This document shows, piece by piece, positions 7,147-25,023 of a stretch of DNA of 25,023 bases (positions are counted from its first letter, which is position 1; each line of letters starts with the position of its first letter). The notes beneath the pieces are model-generated. The model was not told where the DNA came from. It searched no databases and saw only the letters and a program-made list of their open reading frames with translations. This DNA is from Acidobacteriota bacterium (GTDB lineage Bacteria; Acidobacteriota; Terriglobia; Terriglobales; Acidobacteriaceae), in assembly GCA_021780415.1 (NCBI GenBank), contig JAJXYW010000010.1:1-25023 (forward strand), in the 5' to 3' direction. The position numbers and the translations under genes are program-made.

Positions 7147-7192
7147 CCTCATCTGCCTTATCGCCTGTTAAAAAGCCTGTGGAAGCAGCTTT

Positions 7193-7284
7193 TTTTCCAC
7201 GCATAAACGGTCACAAGGAAACAGCCTTTTCCACGCATAAACGGTCACAAGTTGGCCCTTTTTCCACGCATAAACGGTCACAAG
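7193..7284 (+). repeat. Three perfect iterons
   Basis: A 25-bp unit starting TTTTCCACGCATAAACGG and ending TCACAAG occurs at 7193-7217, 7227-7251 and 7260-7284 without a mismatch. Start-to-start spacing is 34 and 33 bp, close to three helical turns, so RepA would bind on about the same face each time. Three is fewer than many iteron origins, but sufficient in some. Confidence 0.92.
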
Positions 7285-8228: not shown

Positions 8229-8323
8229 CGTGTCCTCCTTATTCTCCACGGTACGCTCCCCCGGCATCGGCGGCAAGAGCGGGGCGCTTGACGGCGGAGG
8301 GCCGTTGGGGGGAATATCCGAAA

Positions 8324-8359
8324 GGCGCACTTATACATCGCTTCGCGATGTTGTGCGCC
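8324..8359 (-). other. Origin of transfer, IncQ/R1162-like oriT with nic site
   Basis: Read on the minus strand, inverted repeat ACATCGC-GAA-GCGATGT (8351-8335) is followed by ATAAGTGCGCC (8334-8324). IncQ plasmids such as R1162/RSF1010 have the same plan: an inverted repeat with a GAA loop, then TAAATGCG/CCCT, cut by MobA between G and C. The nick would fall between 8326 and 8325. An outer repeat (GGCGCAC at 8324-8330 with GTGCGCC at 8353-8359) makes the site more symmetric than R1162. A further hairpin, GAGGGC-TCC-GCCCTC, is at 8362-8376. With this strand, mobA would enter the recipient last, as is usual. Confidence 0.85.
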
Positions 8360-8401: not shown

Positions 8402-10072
8402 ATGGCGATTTACCACTTGTCGGCGCAGATCATCGGGCGATCATCCGGCCGGAGCGTGGTGGCTGCGGCGGCGTACCGGTCCGGGGAGCGCCTTCATGAA
8501 GAGCGCACGGACCAGACGCACGACTACACGAAACGGCAAGAGGTCGAGAGCGAAATCCATACCCCTGTTGGCGCTCCGGAATGGATGCAGGACCGGGAGC
8601 GCCTCTGGAACGCGGTGGACAGTGCGGAGAAGCGAAAGGACGCGCAGCTCGCGCGGGAGTTCAACCTGGCGCTGCCCAAGGAGCTGGATGCGGAAAGACA
8701 GCGAGAGCTGGTCCGGTCCTTCGTGAAGGAAGAGATCGTACAGCGGGGCATGGTGGCGGACGTAGCGATTCACCGGAACGATCCGAACAATCCCCACGCG
8801 CACGTTTTGGTGACGATGCGCGAGGTGACCCCCGAGGGGTTTGGAGCGAAGAACCGGGAGTGGAACCGGCCGGAGCAGTTGGAGCACTGGCGGGAGCAGT
8901 GGGCGGATCACACCAACCGGGCGCTGGAGCGGGCCGGGCGGGAGGAGCGGATCGACCACCGGTCGCTTCGGGCCCAGGGCATCGAACGGGAGCCCACCCG
9001 GCACCTGGGGCCGGCGGCGGCGGCGATGGAGCGGAAGCACCTGGACCCGGACCGGGGGCGGGTGGTGCGGGAGGTCCGGGAGTACAACCGGACCCTGGTG
9101 GACTTTCAGGGGGCCCAGAGCGAGCTGGAGCGGGAGAGGGGCATCCTGGAGCGGCACCAAGCGCGGATGGAGGGGGGGACGTGGGACGAGAAGGGGTCGC
9201 TGGCGGTGGCGGCGGTGGAGCGGGAGCGAGGCGGACCGGTGGGGTCCGCGGAGATCCTGCGGGAGAGCCGGGAGGCCCAGGCCGCGGTGTGGCAGCTGGC
9301 GGCCAAGGACCAGGCCCTGGAGCGGCGGGAGTCGGTCCTGGCGTCGTCGCATGAGGGAGCTGAGCGCAGCCGGCAGGAGTGGGCGGCAGCGGCGGAGCAA
9401 CAGAAGCGGGATGAGAGCTGGAGGGGCAAGATCGTGGACCAATGGTGGGGCGGCCGGACGGCATCCGAGGTGGAAGGGAACCGGTGGAGGGTGCAGACCG
9501 CGGCGGAGTCGTATCACCAGTACCTGAAGCAAGCGGGGCATACGGAGACCGGGGAGTTGCAGCGCGAGCTGCACCAAGTCCGGCAGCAGCGAGTGGAGCT
9601 GAAGGAGGAGCGGGAGCGGCAGGAAGCCCGGCGAGGGCTGTACGGCCCGGCGGCCGCGGGCTACGAGCGGCACCGGGAAGCGAGCCTGGAGCGGGACCCG
9701 GAGATTCAGGCACGGCACCAGGCGCGGCTGGAGTCCGGGGTGTGGCGGCCGAAGGAGAGCCTGGAGATGGCCCGGCTGGAGGTGGACAGGGGTGGCCCGG
9801 TGACGCGGGAATGGCTCCGGGAGCAGGCGGGGCGCGAGAGCAATGCGTGGAACGCCTACAGCCGGTGCGAGCGGTCGCTGGAGCACGCGGAGGAACTGGG
9901 GCGCTACCAAGAGGGGCTCGCCAGTGGGAGCGTGCAACACGACCGGACCCTGGACGCGGAGCTGAAGGAGATCGGCCGGGAAGCCATGAGGGCCCTGCAC
10001 CCGGAGGAAGCCGCGCGGGAGCTGGCGCACGAGCGCATGCGGGAAGACCTCTTCTGGAGCCGGAGCCGGTGA
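8402..10072 (+). CDS. mobA: MobA/MobL relaxase, MobQ family
   Basis: 556 residues. The ATG at 8402 gives the family's characteristic beginning MAIYHLSAQIIGRSSGRS followed by AAAAYRSGERL; Tyr25 is the expected nicking tyrosine, at the same position as in RSF1010 MobA. The HAH metal-binding motif is in NNPHAHVLVTMREV (about 134-147), and IDHRSL (about 185) follows. The relaxase domain covers about 1-210. The remaining ~340 residues are highly charged, Arg/Glu-rich and probably coiled-coil, with two related segments (near 265 and 455) containing ERHQAR/ARHQAR and GGPV. There is no primase domain like that of RSF1010. It cuts and pilots the strand at the adjacent oriT; coupling and pilus genes must come from a helper. 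Confidence 0.93.
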   Translation: MAIYHLSAQIIGRSSGRSVVAAAAYRSGERLHEERTDQTHDYTKRQEVESEIHTPVGAPEWMQDRERLWNAVDSAEKRKDAQLAREFNLALPKELDAERQRELVRSFVKEEIVQRGMVADVAIHRNDPNNPHAHVLVTMREVTPEGFGAKNREWNRPEQLEHWREQWADHTNRALERAGREERIDHRSLRAQGIEREPTRHLGPAAAAMERKHLDPDRGRVVREVREYNRTLVDFQGAQSELERERGILERHQARMEGGTWDEKGSLAVAAVERERGGPVGSAEILRESREAQAAVWQLAAKDQALERRESVLASSHEGAERSRQEWAAAAEQQKRDESWRGKIVDQWWGGRTASEVEGNRWRVQTAAESYHQYLKQAGHTETGELQRELHQVRQQRVELKEERERQEARRGLYGPAAAGYERHREASLERDPEIQARHQARLESGVWRPKESLEMARLEVDRGGPVTREWLREQAGRESNAWNAYSRCERSLEHAEELGRYQEGLASGSVQHDRTLDAELKEIGREAMRALHPEEAARELAHERMREDLFWSRSR

Positions 10073-10480: not shown

Positions 10481-10686
10481 CCTGCGGGCAACTTCTGCTC
10501 CGGGTGGAGACCAAGAGCTACGCGGAGAGGGCCCTTGACAACGAGCGATCCGAGGGAGTAGCCTCACGCCCAGATTCGCCAACAGGCTCGGTCTTCGAAG
10601 GGGGTCATTACACAACCAGAGAGCAAGGCGGTTTGGCCGCAGTGCCGGCCGGATTGCCGTATGGAGAATGGAGAGGGAAGGCATCC

Positions 10687-13600
10687 ATGCTGGGAAAGAG
10701 CGGGATCCGAGGAATGTGCGCGGTCGTTGGGGTGACCCTGCTGGCATCACTGTGTGCGCAGGACGTTCAGTTCCCCGGCAGTGTGAGCGGTAGTCTGAGA
10801 CAGGGTGTCTGGGTCTCCACGGCCTCCGGACTCTACCAGATCGCGTCAGGTTCCAGCGTGCCCGTCCTGGAAAGCCCGGCCGTCGCTGAGCCCGTGGTGG
10901 GGGCCGCTGACCCCGCCCGGGGCAAGGTCTGGTGGTATGGGGCCGGCCGGCTCCAGGCCCTCAGCGCCGGTGGCGCAGTCCTGGCCGATACTACCCCCGA
11001 ATCCCTCGCCTCCGTGGTCCAGCAGGCCTCCGGCTCCACTGCTTTTGTGGTGAACCCGGCGGATGGCCACCTGTGGCTCTCGGCCGGCTCCTCCCTCTAC
11101 GAATATGACCCGTCCTCGGAGCTGCTCCTGAACACCGTTCCCCTGGAAGGGACCATCCGGCGCCTCGCGGTGGATGCCATCCACGCGCACCTGTGGGTGG
11201 GATTGGATTCGCAGGTCCTGTGCCTGGATCCCTCGACGAAGGCGGTGACCCAATCGATCTTCCTGGAGCGCACCGCGACCCTCCTGGACATGGTCGTGGA
11301 TCCCGCCTCCGGAGCCCTGTGGGTGCTGACGAATAAGGAGCTCTGCAGCTATGACAGCACCGGGCGTTTGCTCTGCCGGGAAGCCGCCGAGGGAGGCGAG
11401 GCGGTCGCACCGGGCCGGGAAGGGTCGGCGTGGCTGGCATCGGGCACGAGCCTCCTCCACCTGGACGCTGCGTGCTCGCCTACCTTCTCCGTGCCGCTTC
11501 CGCCGGCGGATCAACGCGAGGAGGCCCTCGCCCCCGCGCACCTCCTCGTGGATCCCGCCTCGGGAGCGATCTGGGTCAGCCGGGGGAAGAAGCTGTTCCA
11601 GTACGATGCCACGGGAAGCCTTCTCCAGACCCTCTCCCTGCCAGGCGAGGCCCTGAGCCTGTTCTCGGAAGACGCCGGGACGCCCCCGCTTCCTTCGAGC
11701 CTCGCCCGTTTCGCCTGGTTTGGCTGTTCCTCCCTGATGGTCAACGGGCACACCCAGATCTATGCCTTGCCGGCACCGGGAGGAGCGCAGGGCTTCGGGG
11801 GCAACATCGCCTCGAACGGGCCCATCACGGTCAACGGCAGCAACACCATCGACGGCAATGCCACGCCGGGCCCGGGGCAGCAGGTCTCCATCAATGGCAC
11901 CTCCGGCCAGGTGGCCGGATCCACGGCACCGGCGGCTACCGCCCTCACCTGCGACGATGCAGGGGTAGGGGCCTGGGCCCAGTATGCCCAAGCCAGCAAC
12001 AACAACGCCGCCATCCCTGCGGGGTTCTTGGACAAGAACGGCAACTTCACCCTCAACGGCAACAAGAGCTGCACGCTGCCCGGAGGTATCTACTCCCTGG
12101 CCTCCTTTTCGGGCAACGGCAATACCACCCTCACCGTGAGCGGGCCGGTCATCCTCGTCGTCTCGGGGACCATCAGCCTCAACAGCCGGTGCACGCTCAA
12201 CGCCGGTGGCGATCCCACCGGGTGCCTCTTCCTTCAGACCAGCGGCTCCGCCGTTTCGCTCAACGGGAATGGCTCCGGGGACTTCCAGGTCTACGCGCCG
12301 CTCTCCTCCCTCACGGTCAACGGGAACGTGAACGGCACCGGCAACCTCTGGGCCAACACCTTCACCGGCAACGGCTCGGTGGTTTGGAACCGGATCAAGG
12401 ACACGACCCCGCCCACGGTGCTCATCACCGCGCCCCAGAACGGGAGCTACACCAACAAGCCCCAGCCGGCGGTGTCCATCGAGTACCAGGACAACCCCGG
12501 TGGAACCGGCGTGAACGTGGCTTCGCGCCGGGTCACCGTGGATGGCACCGATATCACCTCGGCCCTCACCCTCGGCCCCGGCGGGGCCACGGGGACCGTC
12601 CCCTCCCGTCTCGCGGACGGAGCCCATACCCTTCTGGCCCAGGTAGCGGATTACGACGGCAACGTAGGCAGCGCCACGGCGGCCTTCACGGTCAAGACCG
12701 TGCCCCCTCCTCCGGTCAACTCCAGCTTGGTCACCGTCTCCAGCGTGACGAACGGCAGCACCACGGTCTCCGGCGCCGCCGGGGCGACGCAGGCGGACAC
12801 CACCGTGCAGATCACCGACACCGCTTCGTCGGCGCAGGCCACCGCGTCCGCGGCCGCGGACGGCAGCTTCTCGGCCCAGGTCGCGGCCCAGGCGGGTAAC
12901 AATCTCACCCTGGTGGCCATCGACCTGGCGGGCAATGGGAGCAGCCCCATCACTGTCACCGTGCCGGGCGGAAGCGGGGGCGGCGGGACCATCCCCCCCG
13001 ATCCCTCGACCGTGGCACCGCCCCTCGACCCCACCGTGGTGACGGACCTGTACACGGCCACCCAGTTCCTCTACGCCGGGACCCCGCCCATCCAGACGGG
13101 TGTGGCTCCTGGGACCATCGATCCGCGCCGGGTGGCGGTGCTGAGGGGGCGTGTCGAGACCCTTGCCGGACAACCGCTTCCGGGCGTCACCATCACCGTC
13201 GCCGGCCATCCCGAGTTCGGCCAGACCCTCTCCCGCCTGGACGGGATGTTCGATCTGGTCGTGAACGGCGGAGGCCCGCTCACCGTGAACTACGCGATGG
13301 CCGGCTATCTCACGGCCCAGAGGCAAGTGCAGACCCCCTGGCGGGACTACCGGTGGCTACCCGACGTGATCCTGATCCAGCCTGATTCCCAGGTGACGGC
13401 CATTACCTTCGGTGGCACGACCTCCATCCAGGTGGCCCGCGGCTCCGCCCAGACCGACGCTAACGGCACGCGCCGGGCGACGCTCCTTTTCCAGGCGGGG
13501 ACCACGGCCTCCCTCGTCCTGCCCGATGGCAGCACGCAGCCGGTCTCGGTCCTGCACATCCGGGCCACCGAATGTACGGTCGGCCCGAACGGTCCCAAGG

Positions 13601-16600
13601 CCATGCCGGGCGACCTGCCCTTCGAGAGCGGCTACACCTACTGCGTGGACTTGAGTGCCGACGAGACCACCCCCGCGGGCGCGCAGGGGGTCACCTTCAG
13701 CCAGCCCGTGGCCTGCTACCTGGAGAACTTCCTCAATTTCCCCGTGGGGAACGCCGTGCCGTCGGGGTACTACGACCCGCAAAGGTCGGCCTGGATTCCC
13801 TCGGCCAACGGACTTGTGGTGCGCATCCTCTCCATCACCAATGGCATGGCGGACCTGGATGTGGACGGGAGCGGGACACCGGCCACGGAAACCACACTGC
13901 AAGCCCTGGGCATCACCGACGCCGAGCGGCAGCAGGTAGCCACGCTCTACCAAGTTGGGCAGAGCCTCTGGCGCGTTGCCGTGAGCCACTTCTCCTGGTG
14001 GGATTGGAACTGGGGCGGCGGACCGCCGCCCGATGCGGTAGCGCCCGATCAGCAGGCACCGACCGCCGAAGATGGGGGAGTAAACAACGACTGTCAGTCC
14101 CCGGGATCGATCATTCAAGTGCGCAATCAGATCCTCGAAGAGATGTTGCCCGTTCCAGGCACACCCTTTCACCTGACCTACAACAGCGACCGCCAGGCTG
14201 GAGCGCTCGCAGGAAGATCTCTCCATATCCCTCTGAGCGGAAGCCAAGTTCCGGCTTCCCTGCAATCCATCAAGGTAGCAGTCTCGTGTGAAGGCCAAGT
14301 ATCCACCCAGAGTTTCCCGGCGGCCCCCAATCTCAGCTATGACTATGTGTCGCCAAGCACGGATCTCTACGGGAGACCTGTTCAAGGCAAGGTACCTGTA
14401 ACCGTAGAGATTGCTTATTGCTACCCATTGTACTACTACACCACTGATGCATCCGTGCTTCCGCTCCTTTCTCGTTTCCCCTGGGAGGGAAATAGTGCGA
14501 TGCATTTCCTGCAAATCAACGGTTCCCGCGTAGGCGGGACTTTCGAAATCCACCAGGATTGGTCCGGGACCCTCGATACCTCTCAAGACTTCTCCGTAGG
14601 CGGTTGGGATAGTACGAGGGAGAAGCTCGGCGGCTGGACCTTGAGCATTCACCATGTTTATGATCCGAATGCCCGTGCTCTCTACCTTGGAACAGGCGAC
14701 ACCGAGAGTGTCGAAGGCTTCTCTCTCGCGATGCCCGCCATTGCCGGAAACGGGACGGCTGGCGATACCGGTGACGGGGGACCCGCTATCTCCGCTGAAA
14801 TCGCACCAAGTGGGATCGCCGTTGGGGCAGATGGATCCTTGTACATTGCAGACAGCGGAGATCACGTAGTTCGCAAAGTATCGCCCAATGGAATCATCTC
14901 AACGTTCGCCGGCAATGGCCAAGCGGGGTACAGTGGCGATGGCGGCCCTGCAACGGCGGCAGAACTGTCTGGACCAGGCGCCGTTTCAGTGGGAGCTGAT
15001 GGTAGCGTCTACATCGCAGATGGGGGGGCTGTCCGTCGTGTTGATCCCAACGGAGTGATCTCCACGATTGCAGGTCCCTGTAATTGTTCGCTGCCCCCGA
15101 GTGTCCGCACGGAAAGTTGTGGACCAGGTGACACTGGCCCGGCAACTCAAGCCTGTATCTCTCCAGAAGCCATTTGCGTAGGCCCGGACGGTGACCTTTA
15201 CGTTTCGGATCAAACTTACGGAAGTATCCGGAAAGTGGGGGCGGATGGCCTCATCACGACAGTTGCGGGCGGGGGAGGCACCGGGCCAGTGGATGGTATG
15301 CCTGCGCGGCAGAGTGTTCTTTGGGCAGATGGCCTGACGTTCGATCCAAACGGGAAACTCTACATTCCCATGACGTGGACAAGCGACAACCCGGGCTATT
15401 CCCATATATTCACTGTCGACTCGCAAGGGTTTCTCCGCAATTTTGCCGGTAACGGTCAACTCGCTTCCTCTGGCGACGGTGGACCCGCGACTCAGGCATC
15501 GCTGGTGCCGGGCCCACTGGCCACAGGTACGGACGGCAGTATCTATGTTGTGGATGAGGCTGCGAAATCCATCCGAAGGATTTTTCCGGATGGGACCATC
15601 CAGACGGTTGCGGGAGGAGGGGCGGTACCAGCGGACTCTCTTGGCGGGACAGCCACAAGCTACTCGTTTATGTTCCCCAATGGGCTAGCCGTTGCTCCAG
15701 ACGGAACGGTTTTCGTGTCGGATGGGGGCTACAACCGGGTATTTGCGATCCGTCCCACCATGGCCAGCTTCTTCGGCAATCAATTCCACTATATCCCCTC
15801 CCAAGACGGGCGCCAGCTCTTCGTCTTCGACACCTACGGCCGGCACCTGAAGACCCTCGATGCGCTGACCGGAGGCGTGCTCTACAGCTTCGGCTACGAT
15901 GCGGCTGGCTACCTCGTGACGGTCACGGATGGCAGCGGCCGGGTCACGACGATCCAGCGCGACGGCTCCGAGAACGCGACCGCCATCGTCTCCCCCGACG
16001 GGATCACGACCCATCTCTCCCTGGACGCCGAGGACCATCTCACGACCTACACTCTGCCGGGTGGCGAGAGCTGGGCTCTCAGCTACACCCCGGACGGATT
16101 GCTGACTGGGCTCATGGACCCGAAGGGCCAGGCCCATAGTTTCGCGTACGACTCCATCGGGCGCCTCACCCTGGACCAGGACCCGGCGGGCGGTTCCAGT
16201 ACGCTCAGCCGGACCGACACGACGACGGGCTTCTCGGTGGCTCTCACCACCGCCGAGGGGCGCACGAGCACCTACGGGCTCACCTATCTCCCCACCGGCG
16301 ACGAAGAGCGCACGGTGACTCCGGCGGGATGCACGTGCACGGCGAGCGACGAGGTCATCCACACCAACGGGACCAGCGTCACGACCTCGCAGGACGGCAC
16401 CGTCACGAGCGTCACCGAAGGCCCGGACCCGCGGTTCGGGATGGCCGCCTCGATTCCGAACAAGGCCAGCATCACGACGCCCTCGGGCCTCACGCTGGCC
16501 TTCAGCGACAGCCGGGCTACGACCCTCTCCGATCCCAACAGTGTCCTCTCTCTACAATCCCAGACCGACACGGTCACGGTGAACGGCCAGACCACCACCA

Positions 16601-18906
16601 GTGCCTTCAACGCGGGCACCGGCACCGAGACCACCACCTCGCCGGCGGGCCGGACGGCGGTGACCACCCTCGACAGCCTGGGCCGCGTCACGCAGCAGCA
16701 GGCCGGCAGCCTCACCCCCGTGGCCTACGGGTACGATGCGAACGGCCATCTCACTTCGGTGACCCAGGGCAGCCGTTCGGCGAGCCTCGCGTACAACGCC
16801 CAGGGCTTTCTCTCGGGCATCACGGACCCCCTCGGGCGGACGGTGCAGTTCGGGTACGACGCGGACGGCCACGTGACGAGCCAGACGCTGCCGGACGGAC
16901 AGGTGATCGGCTTCACCTACGACGCGAACGGGAACGTGACCTCCGTCACCCCGCCGGGCCGGCCGGCCCACGCCTTCACCTACACCCCGGTGGACCTCCA
17001 GGCCAGCTATACGCCGCCGGATCTGGGCACGGGGACCACCGCCACGACCTACGCCTACAACAAGGACCGGCAGCTCACGGCGATCACGCGCCCCGACGGG
17101 CAGAGCATCGCGATCGGCTACGACACCCAGGGCCGGGCGAGCACGGTCACAACGCCCACGGGCACGACCACCCTCGGGTACGACGCCACGAAGGGGCAGC
17201 TCACGAGCATCCAGGCCCCCAGCGGAGAGAACGAGGCCCTCACCTGGGACGGATTCCTGCCGACCGGCGAGACCTGGAGCGGGCCGGTGAGCGGGAGCCT
17301 GAGCCGCACCTTCGACAACAATTTCCGCGTGACCGGGCTCAGCGTGGACGGGCAGAGTCCCACGGCTTACGCCTACGACGCGGACGGGCTGCTCACGGGA
17401 GCGGGAGGGCTCACCCTGACCCGCGACCCGCAGACGGGCCTGCTCACGGGTTCCACGCTGGGGGGCGTCACCGACAGCCGGACCTACACGAGCTACGGGG
17501 AGCTGGCCACCGACTCCGCGGCCTACCCGGCGGGGCTCAGCTTCCAGGACCAGTACACCCGCGATGCCGCGGGGCGTATCATCCAGAAGGTGGAGACCAT
17601 CAACGGGACGGCGACGACCTATGGCTACAGCTACGACCCGGACGGACGGCTGACGGACGTGACGGTGAACGGGAGCGCGTACAGCCATTACGGCTATGAT
17701 TCCAACGGGAACCGGACGAGCTACACGGGGCCCGATGGGACCGCCATCTCCGGGACGTACGATAATCAGGACCGGATGCTCACCTACGGGAGCTTTTCCT
17801 ACACCTACACGGCCAACGGGGAGCTGGCGAGCAAGACCGATTCCACCAATGGCCAGGTCACGCAGTACACCTACGACGTGTTGGGCAACCTCCGCGCGGT
17901 GGCCCTCCCCGATGGGACCGACATCCAATACCTCATCGACGGCCGGAACCGGCGCATCGGCAAGGAGGTCAACGGGACCTTGACCCAGGCCTGGCTCTAC
18001 GACGGCCAGCTTAGGCCAGTCGCCGAGCTCGACGGCAGCGGCAACGTGGTGAGCACCTTCATCTACGCGACGCACGTGAACGTGCCCGACGCCATGATCA
18101 AGGGCGGTGTCACCTACCGGATTATCACGGACCACCTCGGCAGCCCGAGGTTCATCATCGACCAGGCCACCGGGAACATCGCTGAACGCCTCGACTACGA
18201 CGAGTTTGGAAACGTGCTCACCGATACCAACCCAGGCTTCCAGCCGTTCGGGTTTGCGGGAGGCCTCTACGACAGCCAGACCGGGCTCGTGCGGTTTGGG
18301 GCCAGGGATTACGATCCCCAGGCGGGAAGGTGGACGTGCAAGGACCCTGTGCGGTTCTTCGGTGGCAGTAACCTCTTTGCCTATTCACTGGGATCTCCTC
18401 AAACAATTCAGGATCCACTTGGTTTTTGGGGCTTCGGAGTGATGGGGACAGAGTCCACTGAAGTGGGTGCTGGGGTCGCTTCTGCTGGACAGACTGGAGA
18501 GATCGGCGGGGGCCTCTTCTTCGACGGATTGTTTGGTGATCCAAGCGCCGGGTCCTTTGCAAGTTGGGGAGGATTTGCATCCATGTTTGGATGGGGAGAA
18601 GCGGGATATCCAGAAAGTCCGTTCTTCCCACGCTCCACTGGAGGGTATGGCGGTGCTGGCCTATCAGCATTCATTACGAATGCCAACGGCATTGATCGCG
18701 GCTGTCACAAGATGATCGGACCATTCATGCACTTTGGGTTATCCATAGGAAGCCCCTTTCCCTTTGGCGCCCGTCTTGGCCTATCTCTGGACGTATCTGA
18801 CGATGGAACCTGGGTCTTATCCTTTGGTCCGCCCGGATTTGGAGAGGGAGCAGGCGCGAGCGCTGCCGGCTATTCGACAAACACCTGGGCACTGAGTTCC
18901 TATTAG
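10687..18906 (+). CDS. Secreted giant RHS/YD-repeat protein with teneurin-like architecture and variable tip 1
   Basis: 2,739 residues from the ATG at 10687 (GGAAGG upstream), which begins a Sec signal peptide (about 1-24). In order: WD-like propeller repeats (VDPASGAxWV..., about 25-350); Gly/Asn-rich beta-helix-like region (360-570); two Ig-like units (573-757); carboxypeptidase-regulatory-like domain (812-882); plug-like linker to about 1115; an unassigned domain; NHL repeats (GDGGPA...VGADGSLYIAD, 1351-1695); YD shell (1698-2440); RHS core with YRIITDHLGSPRF and GARDYDPQAGRW, ending about 2554; then a 185-residue Gly-rich tip after the DPLG cleavage-like motif. RHS shells encapsulate and release their tips. 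Only this copy has an N-terminus and signal, so it is the expression site. The 14.1-15.8 kb part is less G+C-rich than its flanks. The tip resembles no toxin I know. Confidence 0.9.
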   Translation: MLGKSGIRGMCAVVGVTLLASLCAQDVQFPGSVSGSLRQGVWVSTASGLYQIASGSSVPVLESPAVAEPVVGAADPARGKVWWYGAGRLQALSAGGAVLADTTPESLASVVQQASGSTAFVVNPADGHLWLSAGSSLYEYDPSSELLLNTVPLEGTIRRLAVDAIHAHLWVGLDSQVLCLDPSTKAVTQSIFLERTATLLDMVVDPASGALWVLTNKELCSYDSTGRLLCREAAEGGEAVAPGREGSAWLASGTSLLHLDAACSPTFSVPLPPADQREEALAPAHLLVDPASGAIWVSRGKKLFQYDATGSLLQTLSLPGEALSLFSEDAGTPPLPSSLARFAWFGCSSLMVNGHTQIYALPAPGGAQGFGGNIASNGPITVNGSNTIDGNATPGPGQQVSINGTSGQVAGSTAPAATALTCDDAGVGAWAQYAQASNNNAAIPAGFLDKNGNFTLNGNKSCTLPGGIYSLASFSGNGNTTLTVSGPVILVVSGTISLNSRCTLNAGGDPTGCLFLQTSGSAVSLNGNGSGDFQVYAPLSSLTVNGNVNGTGNLWANTFTGNGSVVWNRIKDTTPPTVLITAPQNGSYTNKPQPAVSIEYQDNPGGTGVNVASRRVTVDGTDITSALTLGPGGATGTVPSRLADGAHTLLAQVADYDGNVGSATAAFTVKTVPPPPVNSSLVTVSSVTNGSTTVSGAAGATQADTTVQITDTASSAQATASAAADGSFSAQVAAQAGNNLTLVAIDLAGNGSSPITVTVPGGSGGGGTIPPDPSTVAPPLDPTVVTDLYTATQFLYAGTPPIQTGVAPGTIDPRRVAVLRGRVETLAGQPLPGVTITVAGHPEFGQTLSRLDGMFDLVVNGGGPLTVNYAMAGYLTAQRQVQTPWRDYRWLPDVILIQPDSQVTAITFGGTTSIQVARGSAQTDANGTRRATLLFQAGTTASLVLPDGSTQPVSVLHIRATECTVGPNGPKAMPGDLPFESGYTYCVDLSADETTPAGAQGVTFSQPVACYLENFLNFPVGNAVPSGYYDPQRSAWIPSANGLVVRILSITNGMADLDVDGSGTPATETTLQALGITDAERQQVATLYQVGQSLWRVAVSHFSWWDWNWGGGPPPDAVAPDQQAPTAEDGGVNNDCQSPGSIIQVRNQILEEMLPVPGTPFHLTYNSDRQAGALAGRSLHIPLSGSQVPASLQSIKVAVSCEGQVSTQSFPAAPNLSYDYVSPSTDLYGRPVQGKVPVTVEIAYCYPLYYYTTDASVLPLLSRFPWEGNSAMHFLQINGSRVGGTFEIHQDWSGTLDTSQDFSVGGWDSTREKLGGWTLSIHHVYDPNARALYLGTGDTESVEGFSLAMPAIAGNGTAGDTGDGGPAISAEIAPSGIAVGADGSLYIADSGDHVVRKVSPNGIISTFAGNGQAGYSGDGGPATAAELSGPGAVSVGADGSVYIADGGAVRRVDPNGVISTIAGPCNCSLPPSVRTESCGPGDTGPATQACISPEAICVGPDGDLYVSDQTYGSIRKVGADGLITTVAGGGGTGPVDGMPARQSVLWADGLTFDPNGKLYIPMTWTSDNPGYSHIFTVDSQGFLRNFAGNGQLASSGDGGPATQASLVPGPLATGTDGSIYVVDEAAKSIRRIFPDGTIQTVAGGGAVPADSLGGTATSYSFMFPNGLAVAPDGTVFVSDGGYNRVFAIRPTMASFFGNQFHYIPSQDGRQLFVFDTYGRHLKTLDALTGGVLYSFGYDAAGYLVTVTDGSGRVTTIQRDGSENATAIVSPDGITTHLSLDAEDHLTTYTLPGGESWALSYTPDGLLTGLMDPKGQAHSFAYDSIGRLTLDQDPAGGSSTLSRTDTTTGFSVALTTAEGRTSTYGLTYLPTGDEERTVTPAGCTCTASDEVIHTNGTSVTTSQDGTVTSVTEGPDPRFGMAASIPNKASITTPSGLTLAFSDSRATTLSDPNSVLSLQSQTDTVTVNGQTTTSAFNAGTGTETTTSPAGRTAVTTLDSLGRVTQQQAGSLTPVAYGYDANGHLTSVTQGSRSASLAYNAQGFLSGITDPLGRTVQFGYDADGHVTSQTLPDGQVIGFTYDANGNVTSVTPPGRPAHAFTYTPVDLQASYTPPDLGTGTTATTYAYNKDRQLTAITRPDGQSIAIGYDTQGRASTVTTPTGTTTLGYDATKGQLTSIQAPSGENEALTWDGFLPTGETWSGPVSGSLSRTFDNNFRVTGLSVDGQSPTAYAYDADGLLTGAGGLTLTRDPQTGLLTGSTLGGVTDSRTYTSYGELATDSAAYPAGLSFQDQYTRDAAGRIIQKVETINGTATTYGYSYDPDGRLTDVTVNGSAYSHYGYDSNGNRTSYTGPDGTAISGTYDNQDRMLTYGSFSYTYTANGELASKTDSTNGQVTQYTYDVLGNLRAVALPDGTDIQYLIDGRNRRIGKEVNGTLTQAWLYDGQLRPVAELDGSGNVVSTFIYATHVNVPDAMIKGGVTYRIITDHLGSPRFIIDQATGNIAERLDYDEFGNVLTDTNPGFQPFGFAGGLYDSQTGLVRFGARDYDPQAGRWTCKDPVRFFGGSNLFAYSLGSPQTIQDPLGFWGFGVMGTESTEVGAGVASAGQTGEIGGGLFFDGLFGDPSAGSFASWGGFASMFGWGEAGYPESPFFPRSTGGYGGAGLSAFITNANGIDRGCHKMIGPFMHFGLSIGSPFPFGARLGLSLDVSDDGTWVLSFGPPGFGEGAGASAAGYSTNTWALSSY
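17485..18314 (+). repeat. RHS core block duplicated at 19496-20325
   Basis: This 830-bp stretch of the main RHS gene matches 19496-20325 base for base by eye (constant offset of 2,011). Differences appear just before it (C at 17484, G at 19495) and just after it (TCCCCAGGC versus CGCACTGAC). Identity without even silent changes points to recent duplication or gene conversion. Confidence 0.88.
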
Positions 18907-18923
18907 CGCGGGAAAGGAGGTTG

Positions 18924-19325
18924 GTGCTGGACATCCTTCTTGATTGGCTGCGGACATCGTGCCTAGGCCTAGCGATAGTAGCCTCGGGTGTAATCCTAGG
19001 CTATGTCGTGCCGTATTTTGCATTCCATCTGCGTGTCCAAGATGGGGCCATCCAATGGTGTCTGTGCGGCATCGAAGTGGCGAGCGTCAGACTTTCCGAC
19101 ATCACCGGCATAGGAATTGTACGAAGATCGCTGCTGCAACTCCTCCAGGAGAAGCCAAACTATCGCATGTGGGGTGTTAGGCTATACTTTCCAGGCGTCT
19201 TCATCCAGGTAACCTTGAAGAACGGACGATGCCCAAAACTCTACATCGTAACGCGGGCTCCGGCTAGATTGGTCGAACAAGTGCGAGGGCAGATCGAGGT
19301 GTCTCCTGGGCGCCCAATACCTTGA
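18924..19325 (+). CDS. Membrane-anchored small protein, putative immunity to tip 1
   Basis: 133 residues from GTG at 18924, with AGGAGG at 18915-18920; a TTG at 18921 is too close to that site. One strong hydrophobic stretch near residues 12-34 (LGLAIVASGVILGYVV) anchors a beta-rich, basic domain (VQDGAIQWCLCGIEVASVRL, then TGIGIVRRS and VRLYFPGVFIQVTL) that looks like a bacterial PH-like domain. It follows the tip-1 stop by 17 bp, the immunity position. Its stop overlaps the TTG of the next RHS fragment. The role is inferred from position only; it is clearly less G+C-rich than the RHS core. Confidence 0.7.
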   Translation: MLDILLDWLRTSCLGLAIVASGVILGYVVPYFAFHLRVQDGAIQWCLCGIEVASVRLSDITGIGIVRRSLLQLLQEKPNYRMWGVRLYFPGVFIQVTLKNGRCPKLYIVTRAPARLVEQVRGQIEVSPGRPIP

Positions 19326-20854
19326 AGTGTGCGCACAGGCCAGCGGGGCTCAGCGTTGATGGCCAGACCACCACGGCCTACACCTACGACGCCGACGGGC
19401 TGCTCACGGGGGCGGGAGGCCTTACCCTGACCCGCGACCCGCAGACGGGGCTGCTCACGGGTTCCACGCTGGGGGGCGTCACCGACAGCCGGACGTACAC
19501 GAGCTACGGGGAGCTGGCCACCGACTCCGCGGCCTACCCGGCGGGGCTCAGCTTCCAGGACCAGTACACCCGCGATGCCGCGGGGCGTATCATCCAGAAG
19601 GTGGAGACCATCAACGGGACGGCGACGACCTATGGCTACAGCTACGACCCGGACGGACGGCTGACGGACGTGACGGTGAACGGGAGCGCGTACAGCCATT
19701 ACGGCTATGATTCCAACGGGAACCGGACGAGCTACACGGGGCCCGATGGGACCGCCATCTCCGGGACGTACGATAATCAGGACCGGATGCTCACCTACGG
19801 GAGCTTTTCCTACACCTACACGGCCAACGGGGAGCTGGCGAGCAAGACCGATTCCACCAATGGCCAGGTCACGCAGTACACCTACGACGTGTTGGGCAAC
19901 CTCCGCGCGGTGGCCCTCCCCGATGGGACCGACATCCAATACCTCATCGACGGCCGGAACCGGCGCATCGGCAAGGAGGTCAACGGGACCTTGACCCAGG
20001 CCTGGCTCTACGACGGCCAGCTTAGGCCAGTCGCCGAGCTCGACGGCAGCGGCAACGTGGTGAGCACCTTCATCTACGCGACGCACGTGAACGTGCCCGA
20101 CGCCATGATCAAGGGCGGTGTCACCTACCGGATTATCACGGACCACCTCGGCAGCCCGAGGTTCATCATCGACCAGGCCACCGGGAACATCGCTGAACGC
20201 CTCGACTACGACGAGTTTGGAAACGTGCTCACCGATACCAACCCAGGCTTCCAGCCGTTCGGGTTTGCGGGAGGCCTCTACGACAGCCAGACCGGGCTCG
20301 TGCGGTTTGGGGCCAGGGATTACGACGCACTGACGGGCAGGTGGACGTGCAAGGACCCACTGGGCTACGCGTCACGAACTGTTTCGCTCTACTCCTTCTG
20401 CCACGATGATCCGGCCGATTATCACGATATTACGGGAGCCGAACCGATCAGCGGGGCACTCATGGGCGCTTTCTGGGGCGCCTACGGTGCTTATATGCAC
20501 GGAGGGGATCTTGGTGATGTTCTTCTAGGTGCCGGTGTAGGCGCAGGGACAGGGGCTCTCCTTGGGCTGCTCGATCCGAGCAGCGTCTTGGCTGCGGCTG
20601 CATTAGCAGCGATGGCCGCCGGTGCTGGCAATGCAGCAGCACAGGGATGGGACAAGCTCAAGGACCCATGCAAAAAGTTCTCGCTTGGCGAGATGGGAGG
20701 AACAATGCTTGGGGGTTTTGCAGGTGGCGCAATGGGTGCCGCCTATGTTGGTGCAACAGGCCTTGAAGGAGCTGCCGCTCAGGTGGCGGGAGACACCGTG
20801 GGTGGCGCGGTAGGTCTGGGTATCGAATCAGCCTTTACTCCCTTTGGTGAGTAG
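19322..20854 (+). CDS. Orphan RHS core fragment with tip 2 (Gly/Ala-rich)
   Basis: 510 codons from a TTG overlapping the previous stop. There is no ribosome site, no signal peptide and no upstream propeller or NHL part, so it is probably a silent donor cassette, not an independent protein. RHS homology starts near 19340 (GLSVDGQ), runs through the core to GARDYDALTGRWTCKDP, and is identical to the main gene over 830 bp. The 164-residue tip begins at 20360. It has long Gly/Ala-rich hydrophobic stretches (SGALMGAFWGAYGAYMHGG, LLGAGVGAGTGALLGLL, GGTMLGGFAGGAMGAAYVG), as in glycine-zipper membrane segments, split by a soluble stretch (WDKLKDPCKKFSLGE). Membrane insertion or pore formation is a guess; no enzymatic motif is visible. 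Confidence 0.8.
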   Translation: MKCAHRPAGLSVDGQTTTAYTYDADGLLTGAGGLTLTRDPQTGLLTGSTLGGVTDSRTYTSYGELATDSAAYPAGLSFQDQYTRDAAGRIIQKVETINGTATTYGYSYDPDGRLTDVTVNGSAYSHYGYDSNGNRTSYTGPDGTAISGTYDNQDRMLTYGSFSYTYTANGELASKTDSTNGQVTQYTYDVLGNLRAVALPDGTDIQYLIDGRNRRIGKEVNGTLTQAWLYDGQLRPVAELDGSGNVVSTFIYATHVNVPDAMIKGGVTYRIITDHLGSPRFIIDQATGNIAERLDYDEFGNVLTDTNPGFQPFGFAGGLYDSQTGLVRFGARDYDALTGRWTCKDPLGYASRTVSLYSFCHDDPADYHDITGAEPISGALMGAFWGAYGAYMHGGDLGDVLLGAGVGAGTGALLGLLDPSSVLAAAALAAMAAGAGNAAAQGWDKLKDPCKKFSLGEMGGTMLGGFAGGAMGAAYVGATGLEGAAAQVAGDTVGGAVGLGIESAFTPFGE

Positions 20855-20859
20855 AACCC

Positions 20860-21258
20860 ATGTCGGATCAAGGGACTGCCGTTTTGATCGGACTTATGAT
20901 AGGGATTGTCGTTGGCGCTCTCTCGGCAGCTGTGATGCGGTACCTTCTCTTCAATCCCTCCATTGATTACGCGGTACGTGTCATTCTGAGTTTCTTGAGC
21001 GTCTGCCTCTTCATTGGTGGGCCTATCTACCTGCTGGTATACACCTGCCTGCACCTTGGCCTTCGCAACGCTCAAAACAGCCTTCCGGTGATGATCTTTG
21101 CAGAGCTGATTCCTATGGCATATACCATTTTCCGCCTGCGGCGGACCAACACCTGGGACTACGACCTTCACGGTTACGTTCCAAAATTGCAGGATGGTGG
21201 CCGAAAACAAGCTAGATCAACTAACGTAGAAGGAAAGGACAAAGAACAGGGCCGGTGA
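20860..21258 (+). CDS. Small polytopic membrane protein, putative immunity to tip 2
   Basis: 132 residues, ATG 6 bp after the tip-2 stop; only a weak GGTGAG ribosome site, so coupling to the tip gene is likely. Three hydrophobic segments: about 7-30 (LIGLMIGIVVGALSAAVM), 38-63 (VRVILSFLSVCLFIGGPIYL) and 78-92. A basic cytoplasmic-type tail (GGRKQARSTNVEGKDKEQGR) closes it. The last residues and the stop (GGCCGGTGA) lie in DNA homologous to the RHS core (frame-shifted GGGCCGGTGAGCGGG), so the native end of the gene was probably cut when the next core fragment was joined. Family not recognised. Confidence 0.7.
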   Translation: MSDQGTAVLIGLMIGIVVGALSAAVMRYLLFNPSIDYAVRVILSFLSVCLFIGGPIYLLVYTCLHLGLRNAQNSLPVMIFAELIPMAYTIFRLRRTNTWDYDLHGYVPKLQDGGRKQARSTNVEGKDKEQGR

Positions 21259-22745
21259 GCGGGAGCCTGAGCCGGACCTTCGATAATAACTTCCGCGTGA
21301 CGGGGCTCAGTGTGGACGGGCAGAGCCCGGTATCCTTCACCTACGACGCCGACGGGCTGCTCACGGGGGCGGGAAGCCTCACCTTGACCCGAGACCCGCA
21401 GACGGGGCTGCTGACCGGCTCCACGCTGGGGAGCGTCACCGACAGCCGGACGTACACGAGCTACGGGGAGCTGGCCACCGACTCCGCGGCCTACCCGGCG
21501 GGGCTCAGTTTCCAGGCCCAGTACACCCGCGACGCCGCGGGGCGTATCATCCAGAAGGTGGAAACCATCAACGGGACGGCCACGACCTACGGCTACAGTT
21601 ACGACCAGGATGGAAGGCTGACGGACGTGACGGTGAACGGGAGCGCGTACGGCCATTACGGGTACGATTCCAACGGGAACCGGACGAGCTATACCGGGCC
21701 CGATGGGACGACGATCTCCGGCACCTACGACAACCAAGACCGGATGCTCACGTACGGGAGCTTCAGCTACACCTACACGGCCAACGGGGAGCTGACGAGC
21801 AAGACGGACACCAGCACCGGGCAGGTGACGACATACCAGTACGATGTGCTCGGAAACCTGAGAGGCGTCACGTTACCCGACGGAACGGCGATCAGTTACC
21901 TCATCGACGGCCGGAACCGGCGGGTGGGGAAGGAGGTGAACGGGACGCTCACGCAGGCCTGGCTCTACGACGGCCAGCTAAGGCCAGTCGCCGAGCTCGA
22001 CGGCAGCGGGAACGTGGTCTCGACCTTCGTCTATGCTACCCATGTGAACGTACCGGACGCCATGGTGAAGGGCGGGGTGACCTACCGGATCATCACCGAC
22101 CAGCTCGGCAGCCCGAGGTTCATCATCGACCAGGCCACGGGGAATATCGCCGAGCGCCTCGACTACGACGCCTTCGGCAATGTCCTTCTGGACACCAACC
22201 CCGGCTTCCAGCCATTCGGGTTTGCGGGAGGGCTCTACGACAGCCAGACCGGGCTCGTGAGGTTTGGGGCGAGGGATTACGATCCCCAGGCGGGAAGGTG
22301 GACGAGTAAAGATCCAATCCTCTTCGCTGGCAGACTCTCTAACCTCTATGAGTACCCACTTGGAGATCCGCAGAATCATCTCGATCCCAGTGGTAAGCAA
22401 TGGACGTTCGTTCTGGCTGGTCTCGCCGTCGGTTACATGGTCTTCGAATTCTTCTTTGATAGCCCTGATCAGCCGCCTCCACCGGAACTGCGACCTCTTC
22501 CTGGATGTGGCCGCTCAGGATGCCACACAAGCGACAATCCGAACTTGGAAGGCTTCTTAGGACCAACGCCCCTTGGGTATGTCGCCCCACACGGACTTGG
22601 TTCACCCTATGATCAATTTCCGTTCTACGTGTACTATCCAAACGTATACCAACGGCCTAACTTTGGAAATGGCATCCCGGCTCACACGCACACTGACGAG
22701 ACTACACCGCCTCCCGACACTGACGCACCTTGCTTCGCCCCTTGA
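21255..22745 (+). CDS. Orphan RHS core fragment with tip 3
   Basis: 496 codons from GTG 21255, overlapping the previous stop (GTGA). Homology with the main gene starts at GPVSGSLSRTFDNNF, earlier than in cassette 2, and ends at GARDYDPQAGRWTSKDP. The tip, 142 residues from 22317, has one likely transmembrane helix (WTFVLAGLAVGYMVFEFFF), a Pro-rich stretch, a CGRSGC knuckle, an aromatic segment (QFPFYVYYPNVYQRP) and a HTHTDE cluster that could bind metal. No known toxin fold recognised. No good ribosome site or promoter; likely a silent cassette. The last 312 bp of its core match cassette 4 except for one base. Confidence 0.8.
   Translation: MSGSLSRTFDNNFRVTGLSVDGQSPVSFTYDADGLLTGAGSLTLTRDPQTGLLTGSTLGSVTDSRTYTSYGELATDSAAYPAGLSFQAQYTRDAAGRIIQKVETINGTATTYGYSYDQDGRLTDVTVNGSAYGHYGYDSNGNRTSYTGPDGTTISGTYDNQDRMLTYGSFSYTYTANGELTSKTDTSTGQVTTYQYDVLGNLRGVTLPDGTAISYLIDGRNRRVGKEVNGTLTQAWLYDGQLRPVAELDGSGNVVSTFVYATHVNVPDAMVKGGVTYRIITDQLGSPRFIIDQATGNIAERLDYDAFGNVLLDTNPGFQPFGFAGGLYDSQTGLVRFGARDYDPQAGRWTSKDPILFAGRLSNLYEYPLGDPQNHLDPSGKQWTFVLAGLAVGYMVFEFFFDSPDQPPPPELRPLPGCGRSGCHTSDNPNLEGFLGPTPLGYVAPHGLGSPYDQFPFYVYYPNVYQRPNFGNGIPAHTHTDETTPPPDTDAPCFAP
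21990..22301 (+). repeat. RHS core 3' block shared with 24271-24582
   Basis: 312 bp (from GCCGAGCTCGACGG to the Trp codon of GRW) are identical in cassettes 3 and 4 apart from G at 22074 versus T at 24355. The same block differs at many silent sites from the main gene and cassette 2. The four copies therefore form two 3' classes, as expected from mosaic recombination. Confidence 0.88.
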
Positions 22746-22772
22746 GAGTAGCTGGTAAGGAGGGCAGAGAGT

Positions 22773-23531
22773 ATGAGCGAGACGCGCGGAAGGGACACGG
22801 TTACCAAGTGGCTTCTGATGCTCTTCGGGAGTGCGTGGCTGCTTTGTACCTATTACCTGGTGTTCTATCTACCCAGGCTGATGTTCATCATGAAGATGGC
22901 GCAGGCCGGAAATGGCACAGCCGCCTCGGAGCGCACCTTTGTGCCGTATCTATTTCTTCTTGACGGACTCATGCTGCTCCCCATCGCCCTATCGGCCCTG
23001 GCGTGGTCATGCAGCATACTGACCCTGCCAGTTGCCACAAAGGGACAACGGCTGCCAGCTGCCCTCATATGTAGCTTGGTGGGATGTGCCTATGCGGTTG
23101 CGACGCTCACTTGGCCACTGCGGATAGCCATCCCCGTGCTTCATGGCCGAACTGGAATGCTCATCTACAATACAAGGCACCTTTTCCTGTTCAATGACTT
23201 CCTTGGACTCTATGCCATTGCCCTTCTCTCAATAGCAGTCTTGCGACTGGTTGGTGACGAAGTAGTAGGTTTCGAATCCCTTGTCCTGCTGCTATTGGGG
23301 CTTGCGCTTCTATCTTCACCCGGGACCTCCTTGCTTCCTTTTCATGTGCACGGTCGGAGTTACATCGCGCGGGTCGCGTTTGTGTCCCTGCCGTTTCTTT
23401 TTGCGAACGCATACTTCTTCCCCATGGTCTATAGGCGCAAACCAAGCGGGATCGTATTGATCACCTTGGTCGGCTTTTGGTTCTTGTGCATGCTCGCGGT
23501 CCAATGGTACGTTGGGAGGGTATTGGGATAG
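22773..23531 (+). CDS. Polytopic membrane protein, putative immunity to tip 3
   Basis: 252 residues; ATG preceded by AAGGAGG, 27 bp after the tip-3 stop. About seven hydrophobic helices can be drawn: near 13-33, 57-80, 93-115, 133-155, 160-182, 200-220 and 232-250. No conserved family motif was recognised; the two loops with HGRTGMLIYN and HVHGRSYIAR are the most polar. Size and topology make it the largest of the four tip-linked proteins. The immunity role is inferred from position. Its lower G+C content and ordinary codons contrast with the RHS core, which suggests that the tip and this gene arrived together. Confidence 0.72.
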   Translation: MSETRGRDTVTKWLLMLFGSAWLLCTYYLVFYLPRLMFIMKMAQAGNGTAASERTFVPYLFLLDGLMLLPIALSALAWSCSILTLPVATKGQRLPAALICSLVGCAYAVATLTWPLRIAIPVLHGRTGMLIYNTRHLFLFNDFLGLYAIALLSIAVLRLVGDEVVGFESLVLLLLGLALLSSPGTSLLPFHVHGRSYIARVAFVSLPFLFANAYFFPMVYRRKPSGIVLITLVGFWFLCMLAVQWYVGRVLG

Positions 23532-25005
23532 ATCCAACGCATGCAACATCAGCCGCGTTTTCAATAACGACTTCCGCCTCACCGGGCTCAGCGTGGACGG
23601 GCAGGCTCCCACGGCCTACACCTACGATGCCGACGGGCTGCTCGCGGGGGCGGGAGGCCTCACCCTGACCCGCGACCCGCAGACGGGGCTGCTCACCGGC
23701 TCCACGCTGGGGGGCGTCACCGACAGCCGGACCTACACGAGCTACGGGGAGCTGGCCACCGACTCCGCGGCCTACCCGGCGGGGCTCAGCTTGCAGGACC
23801 AGTACACCCGCGATGCCGCGGGGCGTATTATCCAGAAGGTGGAGACCATCAACGGGACGGCGACGACCTACGGCTACAGCTACGATCCGGACGGAAGGCT
23901 GACGGACGTGACGGTGAACGGGGGCGCATACGGCCACTACGGCTACGATTCCAACGGGAACCGGGTCAGTTATACCGGCCCGGACGGCACGACGATCTCC
24001 GGGACGTACGACAACCAGGACCGGATGCTGACCTACGGCAATTTCAGTTACACCTACACGGCCAACGGGGAGCTGGCGAGCAAGACGGACAGCAGCACCG
24101 GGCAGGTGACGCAGTACACCTACGACGTGCTGGGGAACTTGAGGCAGGTGGTCCTTCCTGACGGGACCAACATCCAGTACATCATCGATGGCCGCAATCG
24201 AAGGGTCGGCAAGGAAGTGAACGGCACCCTCACCCAGGCCTGGCTCTACGACGGGCAACTCAGGCCGGTGGCCGAGCTCGACGGCAGCGGGAACGTGGTC
24301 TCGACCTTCGTCTATGCTACCCATGTGAACGTACCGGACGCCATGGTGAAGGGCTGGGTGACCTACCGGATCATCACCGACCAGCTCGGCAGCCCGAGGT
24401 TCATCATCGACCAGGCCACGGGGAATATCGCCGAGCGCCTCGACTACGACGCCTTCGGCAATGTCCTTCTGGACACCAACCCCGGCTTCCAGCCATTCGG
24501 GTTTGCGGGAGGGCTCTACGACAGCCAGACCGGGCTCGTGAGGTTTGGGGCGAGGGATTACGATCCCCAGGCGGGAAGGTGGGCGAGCAAGGATCCGATT
24601 CAATTTTATGGACACCTCTCCAACCTGTACGAATACCCAATCTGCGACCCAGTAAATCGGACTGATTTCACTGGCACGCAAGGGTGGGAAGAAATCGTTG
24701 CCGTGAGCTTCATGCTTGCTGCGCTGGGTGTACCAATGATCCTGCCGTTTGTTGAAGCGCTGCACGAACACCAAAAGCAAGAATACTGCATAACGTGCCA
24801 CAAGAGGCCTTCTGAAACCTGCCAGGTTCCGCCGACGCAGTCAATTGGGCCGCCTTTTCACAATGTACCGCCTTCAGAGACTCCGTTCCCAGAGCTAATG
24901 CCTGCGCATGTTCCAAACGACAACCATGTGGAGTTCACGGTTCCTGGTATTCTTGATCCAAGAACGCTGGGGATGTGGCCACCAGGATCTGAGGAGCTGC
25001 CATGA
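23512..25005 (+). CDS. Orphan RHS core fragment with tip 4
   Basis: 497 codons in the open frame; the only upstream start is TTG 23512, inside the previous gene and without a ribosome site, so the true 5' end is unclear. RHS homology begins near 23552 (RVFNNDFRLTGLSVDGQ) and ends at GARDYDPQAGRWASKDP. The core has KGWVTYR where the others have KGGVTYR. The 135-residue tip from 24598 holds one hydrophobic helix (IVAVSFMLAALGVPMILPF), a HEHQKQEYCITCHKRPSETC segment with a CxxC and a third Cys, then a Pro-rich tail. Zinc binding is plausible; the toxin class is unknown. The stop overlaps the ATG of the next gene across the circular junction (25002 = 106). Confidence 0.8.
   Translation: MGGYWDRSNACNISRVFNNDFRLTGLSVDGQAPTAYTYDADGLLAGAGGLTLTRDPQTGLLTGSTLGGVTDSRTYTSYGELATDSAAYPAGLSLQDQYTRDAAGRIIQKVETINGTATTYGYSYDPDGRLTDVTVNGGAYGHYGYDSNGNRVSYTGPDGTTISGTYDNQDRMLTYGNFSYTYTANGELASKTDSSTGQVTQYTYDVLGNLRQVVLPDGTNIQYIIDGRNRRVGKEVNGTLTQAWLYDGQLRPVAELDGSGNVVSTFVYATHVNVPDAMVKGWVTYRIITDQLGSPRFIIDQATGNIAERLDYDAFGNVLLDTNPGFQPFGFAGGLYDSQTGLVRFGARDYDPQAGRWASKDPIQFYGHLSNLYEYPICDPVNRTDFTGTQGWEEIVAVSFMLAALGVPMILPFVEALHEHQKQEYCITCHKRPSETCQVPPTQSIGPPFHNVPPSETPFPELMPAHVPNDNHVEFTVPGILDPRTLGMWPPGSEELP
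24271..24582 (+). repeat. RHS core 3' block shared with 21990-22301
   Basis: Second copy of the 312-bp block, differing at 24355 only. That base turns the Gly of KGGVTYR into Trp in this copy. Tip sequences diverge completely right after the block. Confidence 0.88.
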
Positions 25006-25023
25006 TAGTGAACTTCTCTCAAA
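24897..25023. repeat. Terminal redundancy, right copy
   Basis: Identical to bases 1-127; see the left copy. The start of the tip-4-linked membrane protein (25002) is contained here and continues at 128-450. Confidence 0.93.

Follow-up and report, generated by a model that had tools for sequence, protein, structure and literature searches.

How does one large gene come to be followed by three truncated copies of its own core, each ending in another tip and each with another small membrane protein behind it? The question is raised by positions 10,687 to 25,005 of contig JAJXYW010000010.1, a stretch of 25,023 nucleotides from an Acidobacteriota assembly (GCA_021780415.1), the whole of which is called the window below. 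The explanation that we consider likely is that this molecule is a plasmid carrying a teneurin-like polymorphic toxin together with three displaced core-tip-partner cassettes and a relic, and that the series was built by incoming cassettes. The features on which the argument depends are these (TM, transmembrane segment; ORF, open reading frame):

10687..18906, + strand: full-length teneurin-like protein (TLP) of 2739 aa, with an N-terminal hydrophobic segment, TTR, FN-plug, NHL, YD-shell and tip 1
17281..18347, + strand: core copy 1, the handle common to the cassettes
17485..18314, + strand: 830-bp exact repeat, first copy
18424..18906, + strand: tip 1, 160 aa, Gly-rich
18921..19325, + strand: partner 1, 134 aa, one predicted TM
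19346..20358, + strand: core fragment 2 (ORF 19322-20854), 98% to copy 1
19496..20325, + strand: 830-bp exact repeat, second copy
20438..20854, + strand: tip 2, 138 aa, Gly/Ala-rich, one predicted TM
20860..21258, + strand: partner 2, 132 aa, membrane protein
21249..22333, + strand: core fragment 3 (ORF 21255-22745), 86% to copy 1
22075..22301, + strand: 227-bp exact repeat in copy 3, shared with copy 4 at 24356-24582
22395..22745, + strand: tip 3, 116 aa
22773..23531, + strand: partner 3, 252 aa, about seven TM
23551..24596, + strand: core fragment 4 (ORF 23512-25005), 87% to copy 1
24676..25005, + strand: tip 4, 109 aa
106..450, + strand: partner 4, 114 aa, three predicted TM, after tip 4 across the joint of the circle (24897=1)
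446..556, + strand: relic of a fifth core fragment, which begins at the partner-4 stop codon, 93% to 17610-17720

The main gene had been taken in a preliminary description for a full-length secreted RHS gene. The gene is full-length; its identity as an ordinary Rhs gene gives way, on Pfam and PDB evidence, to that of a TLP. Within the single 2739-aa frame the families TTR_TEN1-4, FN-plug_TEN1-4, TEN_NHL and TEN_YD-shell follow one another in this order, all above their Pfam cut-offs, with the FN-plug match barely over the threshold (28.6 vs 27.8). Comparison with 177,635 distinct PDB sequences placed the bacterial TLP chains 9pt5 and 9ifo at the top (E=0; 1318 and 1313 bits), followed by animal teneurins (5.4e-95 to 1.1e-75), behind which came the best Rhs-family protein (3.3e-28). 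The solved TLP of B. inaquosorum is thus matched at E=0, and the alignment to 9pt5 covers residues 616-1463 and 1587-2629. As judged from its sequence the main protein is thus a teneurin-like protein and not an ordinary Rhs protein, an assignment that rests on the Pfam cut-offs and the 9pt5 alignment rather than on the hidden Markov models of PMC13018210. A crude scan found a single hydrophobic segment near the N-terminus (residues 10-24), from which export of the protein may be presumed, and no Pfam match to the N-terminal PAAR or VgrG domain looked for in Rhs effectors of the type VI secretion system was present in the main protein. Two Asp residues of the RHS autoproteolysis motif, Asp 2553 and Asp 2576, lie 23 apart; both are visible in all four tips, and tips 2 and 4 have another residue in place of the second motif's Pro. 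By analogy, cleavage at the conserved Asp motif can be proposed for the main protein.

Head to tail, the main gene and partner 1 are followed by three successions of core fragment, tip and partner and then by the relic. The four core copies stand in register, at spacings of 2011, 1957 and 2281, and fragments 2-4 are 98, 86 and 87% identical to the main-gene core (within 17281-18368), which bears out the earlier claim of three 5'-truncated fragments behind a full-length gene. At all four joints the core homology begins again near the last stop-codon base of the partner, at points from 9 bases ahead of it to 21 bases past it. Relatedness of tips and of partners was expressed as z scores against 500 shuffles, with the tips trimmed of core: all six tip pairs gave z ≤3.3, the highest value being that of tips 1 and 2 (3.3; 2/500), both Gly-rich, and all six partner pairs gave z ≤0.5. 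In the crude scan every partner showed hydrophobic segments (1, 2, 7 and 3 for partners 1-4), so the further claims of an unrelated tip on each fragment and a different membrane protein behind each tip also stood. Tips 3 and 4 were considered as one family and rejected as such (z 1.4, 49/500, with the core-end leader trimmed). What is found is accordingly the make-up of an orphan cassette array, in which a 5'-truncated core, an unrelated tip and a small partner recur in series behind a main gene. The window begins and ends with the same 127 bases (positions 1-127 and 24897-25023), and the molecule is therefore circular with 24,896 bp; on the circle the start of partner 4 overlaps the tip-4 stop. 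The relic previously placed at 447-590 is present, its detectable part being only 446-556 (93%). The span 10687..25005 occupies 57.5% of the circle, or 59% once partner 4 and the relic are added, in keeping with the earlier figure of about 60% of a 25-kb plasmid. Each of the three orphan frames runs open for about 500 codons, and all four partner frames are open. Inspection by eye shows Shine-Dalgarno-like sequences ahead of partners 1, 3 and 4 (the start of partner 1 used in relatives is GTG 18924, with AAGGAGG upstream), whereas none lies at the right distance before fragments 2-4. Some orphan partners may therefore be made while the orphan tips stay silent.

Both halves of this arrangement have precedents. 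Raoelijaona et al. described TLPs in 2026 (PMC13018210), as polymorphic toxins that are rare and have their immunity gene downstream. The present gene shares with them the domain order TTR, FN-plug, NHL and YD-shell, the short polymorphic tip, a gene directly downstream and a TLP structure as its best PDB match; tips 1-4, at 109-160 aa, fit the average of about 15 kDa given there for TLP tips. It differs from them in its location on a small plasmid of mobilizable type and in its orphan tip/partner cassettes; in the main text of that paper the word 'orphan' occurs 0 times, and the plasmid passage found among 12 of 16 places concerns expression vectors. Orphan arrays and re-arming are themselves already known (PMC3967940, PMC3150448, PMC3482391, PMC5361080), and the statement of the preliminary description that this is the layout of Rhs and contact-dependent inhibition (CDI) loci, with a precedent for switching, agrees with the literature (PMC3967940, PMC3150448). 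In the Rhs loci of Salmonella LT2 a main gene is likewise followed by a displaced core-tip-immunity fragment, and the shared core was proposed for crossover (PMC3967940). Unlike those loci, the present one has no PAAR Pfam match, lies on a plasmid and not on the chromosome, and uses a TLP scaffold; its putative crossover handle is 830 bp at 100% identity, vs 522 bp at 95% in Salmonella. Rhs orphan genes are usually without initiation signals (PMC3967940), as are, in general, the orphans of the ordered cdiA-CT/cdiI pairs of CDI arrays (PMC3150448). The scaffold is again different from that of CDI: no two-partner-secretion, CdiB-type or VENN-type Pfam match was obtained among 18 window proteins. 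Membrane immunity proteins also stand beside small membrane-acting toxins in the ionophore-type CdiA-CT/CdiI pairs (PMC11630599), which serve as an analogy only. Several Rhs/HINT toxin genes with their neighbours lie in series on the Oscillatoria plasmid pOSC7112.02 (NC_019730); unlike the present molecule, that plasmid is conjugative, measures 260 kb and is not among the 10 records matching the TLP-specific region (see below).

The core copies carry footprints of recombination. Copies 1 and 2 are identical across 830 bp, with 14 differences in the 150 positions just upstream. In a run test on 192 variable core sites with 5000 permutations, the longest agreeing runs were 151 sites for copies 1/2 and 31 sites for copies 3/4, neither reached in any permutation (0/5000 each), while the remaining four copy pairs gave runs of 6-8, reached by 43-251 of the 5000. 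The long runs in pairs 1-2 and 3-4 show recombination or conversion between core copies. A related pattern is seen in P0004, a 2737-aa TLP whose last 212 residues (tip 1) are identical to those of the main protein, although its body varies between 25 and 100% identity per 60-residue window (80-93% through residues 2281-2520). P0004, known as a protein sequence alone, may be an assembly chimera. Together, the core footprints and the P0004 tip support tip exchange indirectly. Identity to P0004 drops to 25-61% in the FN-plug/NHL block (residues about 961-1860), with flanking windows at 80-100%, as if the teneurin middle block were exchanged as a module too. The starts of the fragments provide a further lead. 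In main-gene residues they fall at 2217, 2199, 2206 and 2308 on the plasmid, at 2271 and 2171 in the related locus L008 and at 2217 in contig C49 of genome G010, so that the seven located starts span 138 residues, four of them within 19, with the caveat that short fragments are easier to find and that starts may be inherited with the handle. Three plasmid starts fall inside 55 bp (window 17281-17335), and the G010 start is at the same residue. Such clustering may reflect a preferred junction or an inherited handle end, and is what re-use of a single handle would give.

Relatives were sought in 396 genomes of the phylum, 13 of them from the order of the nearest genome. The TLP-specific region was matched over most of its length in four of these 13 (G001, G003, G010 and G013), and the G001 copy sits on contig C177, the plasmid. 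Locus L008 and contig C32 of G003 appear to be one 30,903-bp contig. It holds an orthologue of the TLP gene (88% over residues 1-1243 and 81% over 1252-2579), whose tip and partner are different ones. Besides this gene the contig carries an orphan fragment, in which a tip resembling tip 3 is accompanied by a homologue of partner 3, and a further fragment, the third, that is degenerate. The neighbours of this array look chromosomal by eye, and none of eight backbone proteins of the plasmid had a match in the 22,250 of its 30,903 bases that were compared. At about 13729-13777 of L008 the orthologous gene is split into frames of 1330 and 1405 aa, which is either a pseudogene or an assembly error; the degenerate fragment adjoins a frame that by eye resembles a transposase.

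The preliminary description had made its reading depend on tips and partners occurring together elsewhere, and for one pair they do. A partner 3 homologue occurs in one of the 396 genomes (G003), directly behind a tip3-like tip. In L008 this tip (z 13.7, 0/500) stands behind an orphan core, and the partner is 31-33% identical (z 36). Tip 4 bears a faint resemblance to the same tip (z 3.9, 2/500). For tip 1 the evidence covers half of the pair: a homologue in contig C24 of G010 (37% over 160 columns, z 14.6, 0/500) has behind it a protein of 137 aa, whose single hydrophobic segment lies at 16-34, compared with 17-35 in partner 1. The G010 contigs C28, C24 and C49 break within the shell region, share no ends and could not be joined into one locus. 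By these sequence comparisons, pairing outside the plasmid is confirmed for tip 3 and partner 3 and half-confirmed for tip 1, and pairs 2 and 4 have no relative to test. Partner 1 was found in three of the 396 genomes: in G001 itself and, as weak and partial matches that were discounted, in G054 and G087 (scores of about 20 bits, within frames of 655 and 680 aa). A protein collection, which gives no gene context, holds relatives of partner 1 (P0002, 97%; P0003, 88%) and one of partner 3 (99%). A partner-4-like protein near another Rhs gene on contig C7 of G001 was too weak to count (24%, E 5.7e-6). In that locus (L067, 894-6946) an Rhs-type gene is followed by a lipoprotein-like frame and the weak partner-4-like membrane protein, and its tip has a by-eye look-alike in contig C251 of G012 beside a different neighbour. 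Another Rhs-type locus, with a 2811-aa gene and then large and small frames in series, lies in contig C49 of G003 (L073, 1068-13612), and arrays like it were met in several of the genomes from this order.

In the mechanism that we propose, the shell protein would be exported and cleaved at the conserved Asp motif, releasing the C-terminal tip as the effector, while the downstream membrane protein would act as its immunity partner and, to judge from its hydrophobic segments, protect the producer from within the membrane. Incoming cassettes would have become fused to the expressed gene at the shared core, displacing the older tip downstream, and a crossover in the 830-bp identical repeat could re-arm the expressed gene. 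The Gly/Ala-rich tips 1 and 2 with their membrane partners suggest membrane-acting toxins, by analogy with the BiTLP tip, which inhibited and permeabilized cells only when exported (PMC13018210). Several results weigh against this explanation. Partner 1 and its G010 counterpart have no detectable similarity (z -0.5; hhalign probability 0.1%), and with the sequence comparison negative their homology is unproven. Partners 2 and 4 were found beside a related tip nowhere but in G001 (one of the 396 genomes each). Partner 2 is, by eye, without a clear Shine-Dalgarno sequence, and promoters in 10073-25023 were not in excess (2 found vs 2.4 expected). No tip or partner reached a Pfam or NCBIfam cut-off, and the toxin and immunity roles therefore rest on position and precedent; within that precedent, only three of nine other representative TLP tips inhibited E. 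coli (PMC13018210).

The last two points would also be expected if the tips were surface adhesion or signalling variants and not toxins, as animal teneurins are adhesion receptors and a communication role has been left open for TLPs (PMC13018210). Yet every tip has its own downstream partner, and one partner bound and neutralized its tip in the same study, so that this alternative appears very improbable. A store of immunity genes, in which the orphans are kept only for their partners as protection against relatives and the orphan tips are not reused, is a possible reading, though one we would not back, and agrees with the initiation signals at partners 1, 3 and 4 and their lack at the fragments. 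Such a store would need neither three orphan tip frames kept open over their length nor the homogenized core copies 1 and 2. The open orphan frames, together with four open partners on only 24.9 kb, also sit poorly with an array that is the passive fossil of successive displacements, of no present use and heading for loss. That account is unlikely, even though the displacement model is already known (PMC5361080) and decay is visible in the relic at 446-556 and in the degenerate third fragment of L008 beside its transposase-like frame.

There is also the idea of active switching, in which crossover in the identical core would already have put tip 2, or another of the tips, onto the full-length gene of some plasmid molecules. 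The proposed Salmonella crossover region, of lower identity and shorter, makes this conceivable (PMC3967940). The preliminary description had suggested a search for molecules that join the full-length N-terminal part to tip 2, 3 or 4, and the only one found is C177. This contig matches positions 1-18314 of the window without a difference (18,314 bp); on leaving the 830-bp repeat it enters the sequence of tip 2 and partner 2 (19496-21452 of the window, exact), and the reading frame of the full-length gene stays open into tip 2. Its other end has tip 1 and partner 1 connected, via 76-bp and 227-bp exact repeats, with tip 4. However, C177 contains no exact repeat of at least 61 bp, vs five in the window, which is the picture given by a collapsed assembly graph. 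Both ends of the contig stop within repeats, after 22 and 20 exact bases (35 and 34 in all). In G001 as a whole neither tip 3 nor partner 3 was found, a gap that would fit a leftover piece of about 2 kb too short to bin. Repeat collapse accounts for C177 without biology, because every long repeat is used once, the ends lie inside repeats and tip 3 is gone, whereas a real isomer would require several crossovers and a deletion. C177 was consequently rejected as direct proof of switching; it is probably an assembly path through the 830-bp repeat, and we allow about one chance in four that it is a real isomer. Since the only apparent direct proof is probably such a path, switching, like toxicity and mobilization, is something that we infer, and switching already under way seems to us fairly unlikely.

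That the window is a plasmid of mobilizable type follows from its circular form and from its RepA and MobA/MobL relaxase genes. Its backbone includes:

5318..5938, + strand: ParA-type partition ATPase (Pfam scan)
6241..7146, + strand: RepA replication protein, RepA_C (PF04796, E 3.2e-26)
7192..7284, + strand: three iteron-like repeats of 26 bp, adjoining repA
8318..8352, no strand assigned: candidate origin of transfer (oriT), AAGTGCGCCTT with an adjoining CATCGC..GCGATG hairpin (by eye)
8404..10072, + strand: MobA/MobL relaxase (PF03389, E 4.7e-75)

The relaxase ORF opens at 8288, and ATG 8404 was judged by eye to be the likelier start. The backbone also codes for a phage-integrase-family protein, a ParE-like toxin and a RES/Xre pair; no mating-pair family was recognized among the ten backbone frames scanned with Pfam. 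Mobilization by way of the relaxase is thus plausible. The mobilizable type asserted in the preliminary description is upheld by the circle, the replication gene and the relaxase, and its oriT is an unproven candidate motif: AAGTGCGCCTT at 8322-8332 (- strand) is one mismatch away from a nick motif, and motifs with up to two mismatches are no more frequent than chance (8 occurrences vs 8.4 expected). Several stability-type modules are packed onto this small plasmid (positions 1348-2473 and 3196-5171), with the ParE-like toxin at 3196, the RES and Xre frames on the - strand and a gene pair at 4561-5171 that has no Pfam match and by eye resembles BrnT/BrnA.

Among 72,556 plasmid records the core was matched in 1232, all below 60% identity, and plasmid-borne Rhs as a novelty was therefore rejected. 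The TLP-specific region was matched by 10 records, and at least 80% of this query was covered in only one, a linear Streptomyces replicon of 2.35 Mb, typed as mobilizable and with a single core match. Whole-plasmid megablast and partner-1 tblastn against the same collection were both empty, and a viral collection gave no pattern match. The top results of literature searches contained no small plasmid of mobilizable type that carries a TLP together with an orphan bank and, in the sources they returned, no description of a vehicle for TLP transfer. The window plasmid is the only small mobilizable-type TLP plasmid found in the searches made.

Animal teneurins are believed to have arisen through the horizontal transfer of a bacterial TLP (PMC13018210). 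A 25-kb plasmid of mobilizable type with a TLP as its main cargo, and a related non-plasmid array in a relative, provide a concrete example of a mobile TLP. More tentatively, the array could be a recombination-driven cassette stack, from which a handle-tip-partner unit would be excised as a circle and inserted again at a different handle, that of the expressed gene included, while a multicopy or dimeric plasmid keeps the old partner and mobilization spreads a re-armable teneurin. If this rather doubtful scheme were true, a cassette stack on a multicopy or dimeric plasmid would remove the loss-of-immunity problem of chromosomal orphans (PMC3150448, PMC3967940). The bank is an apparent store of tips from which the expressed TLP gene could be re-armed, and it puts tip switching on one small molecule, where it becomes testable.

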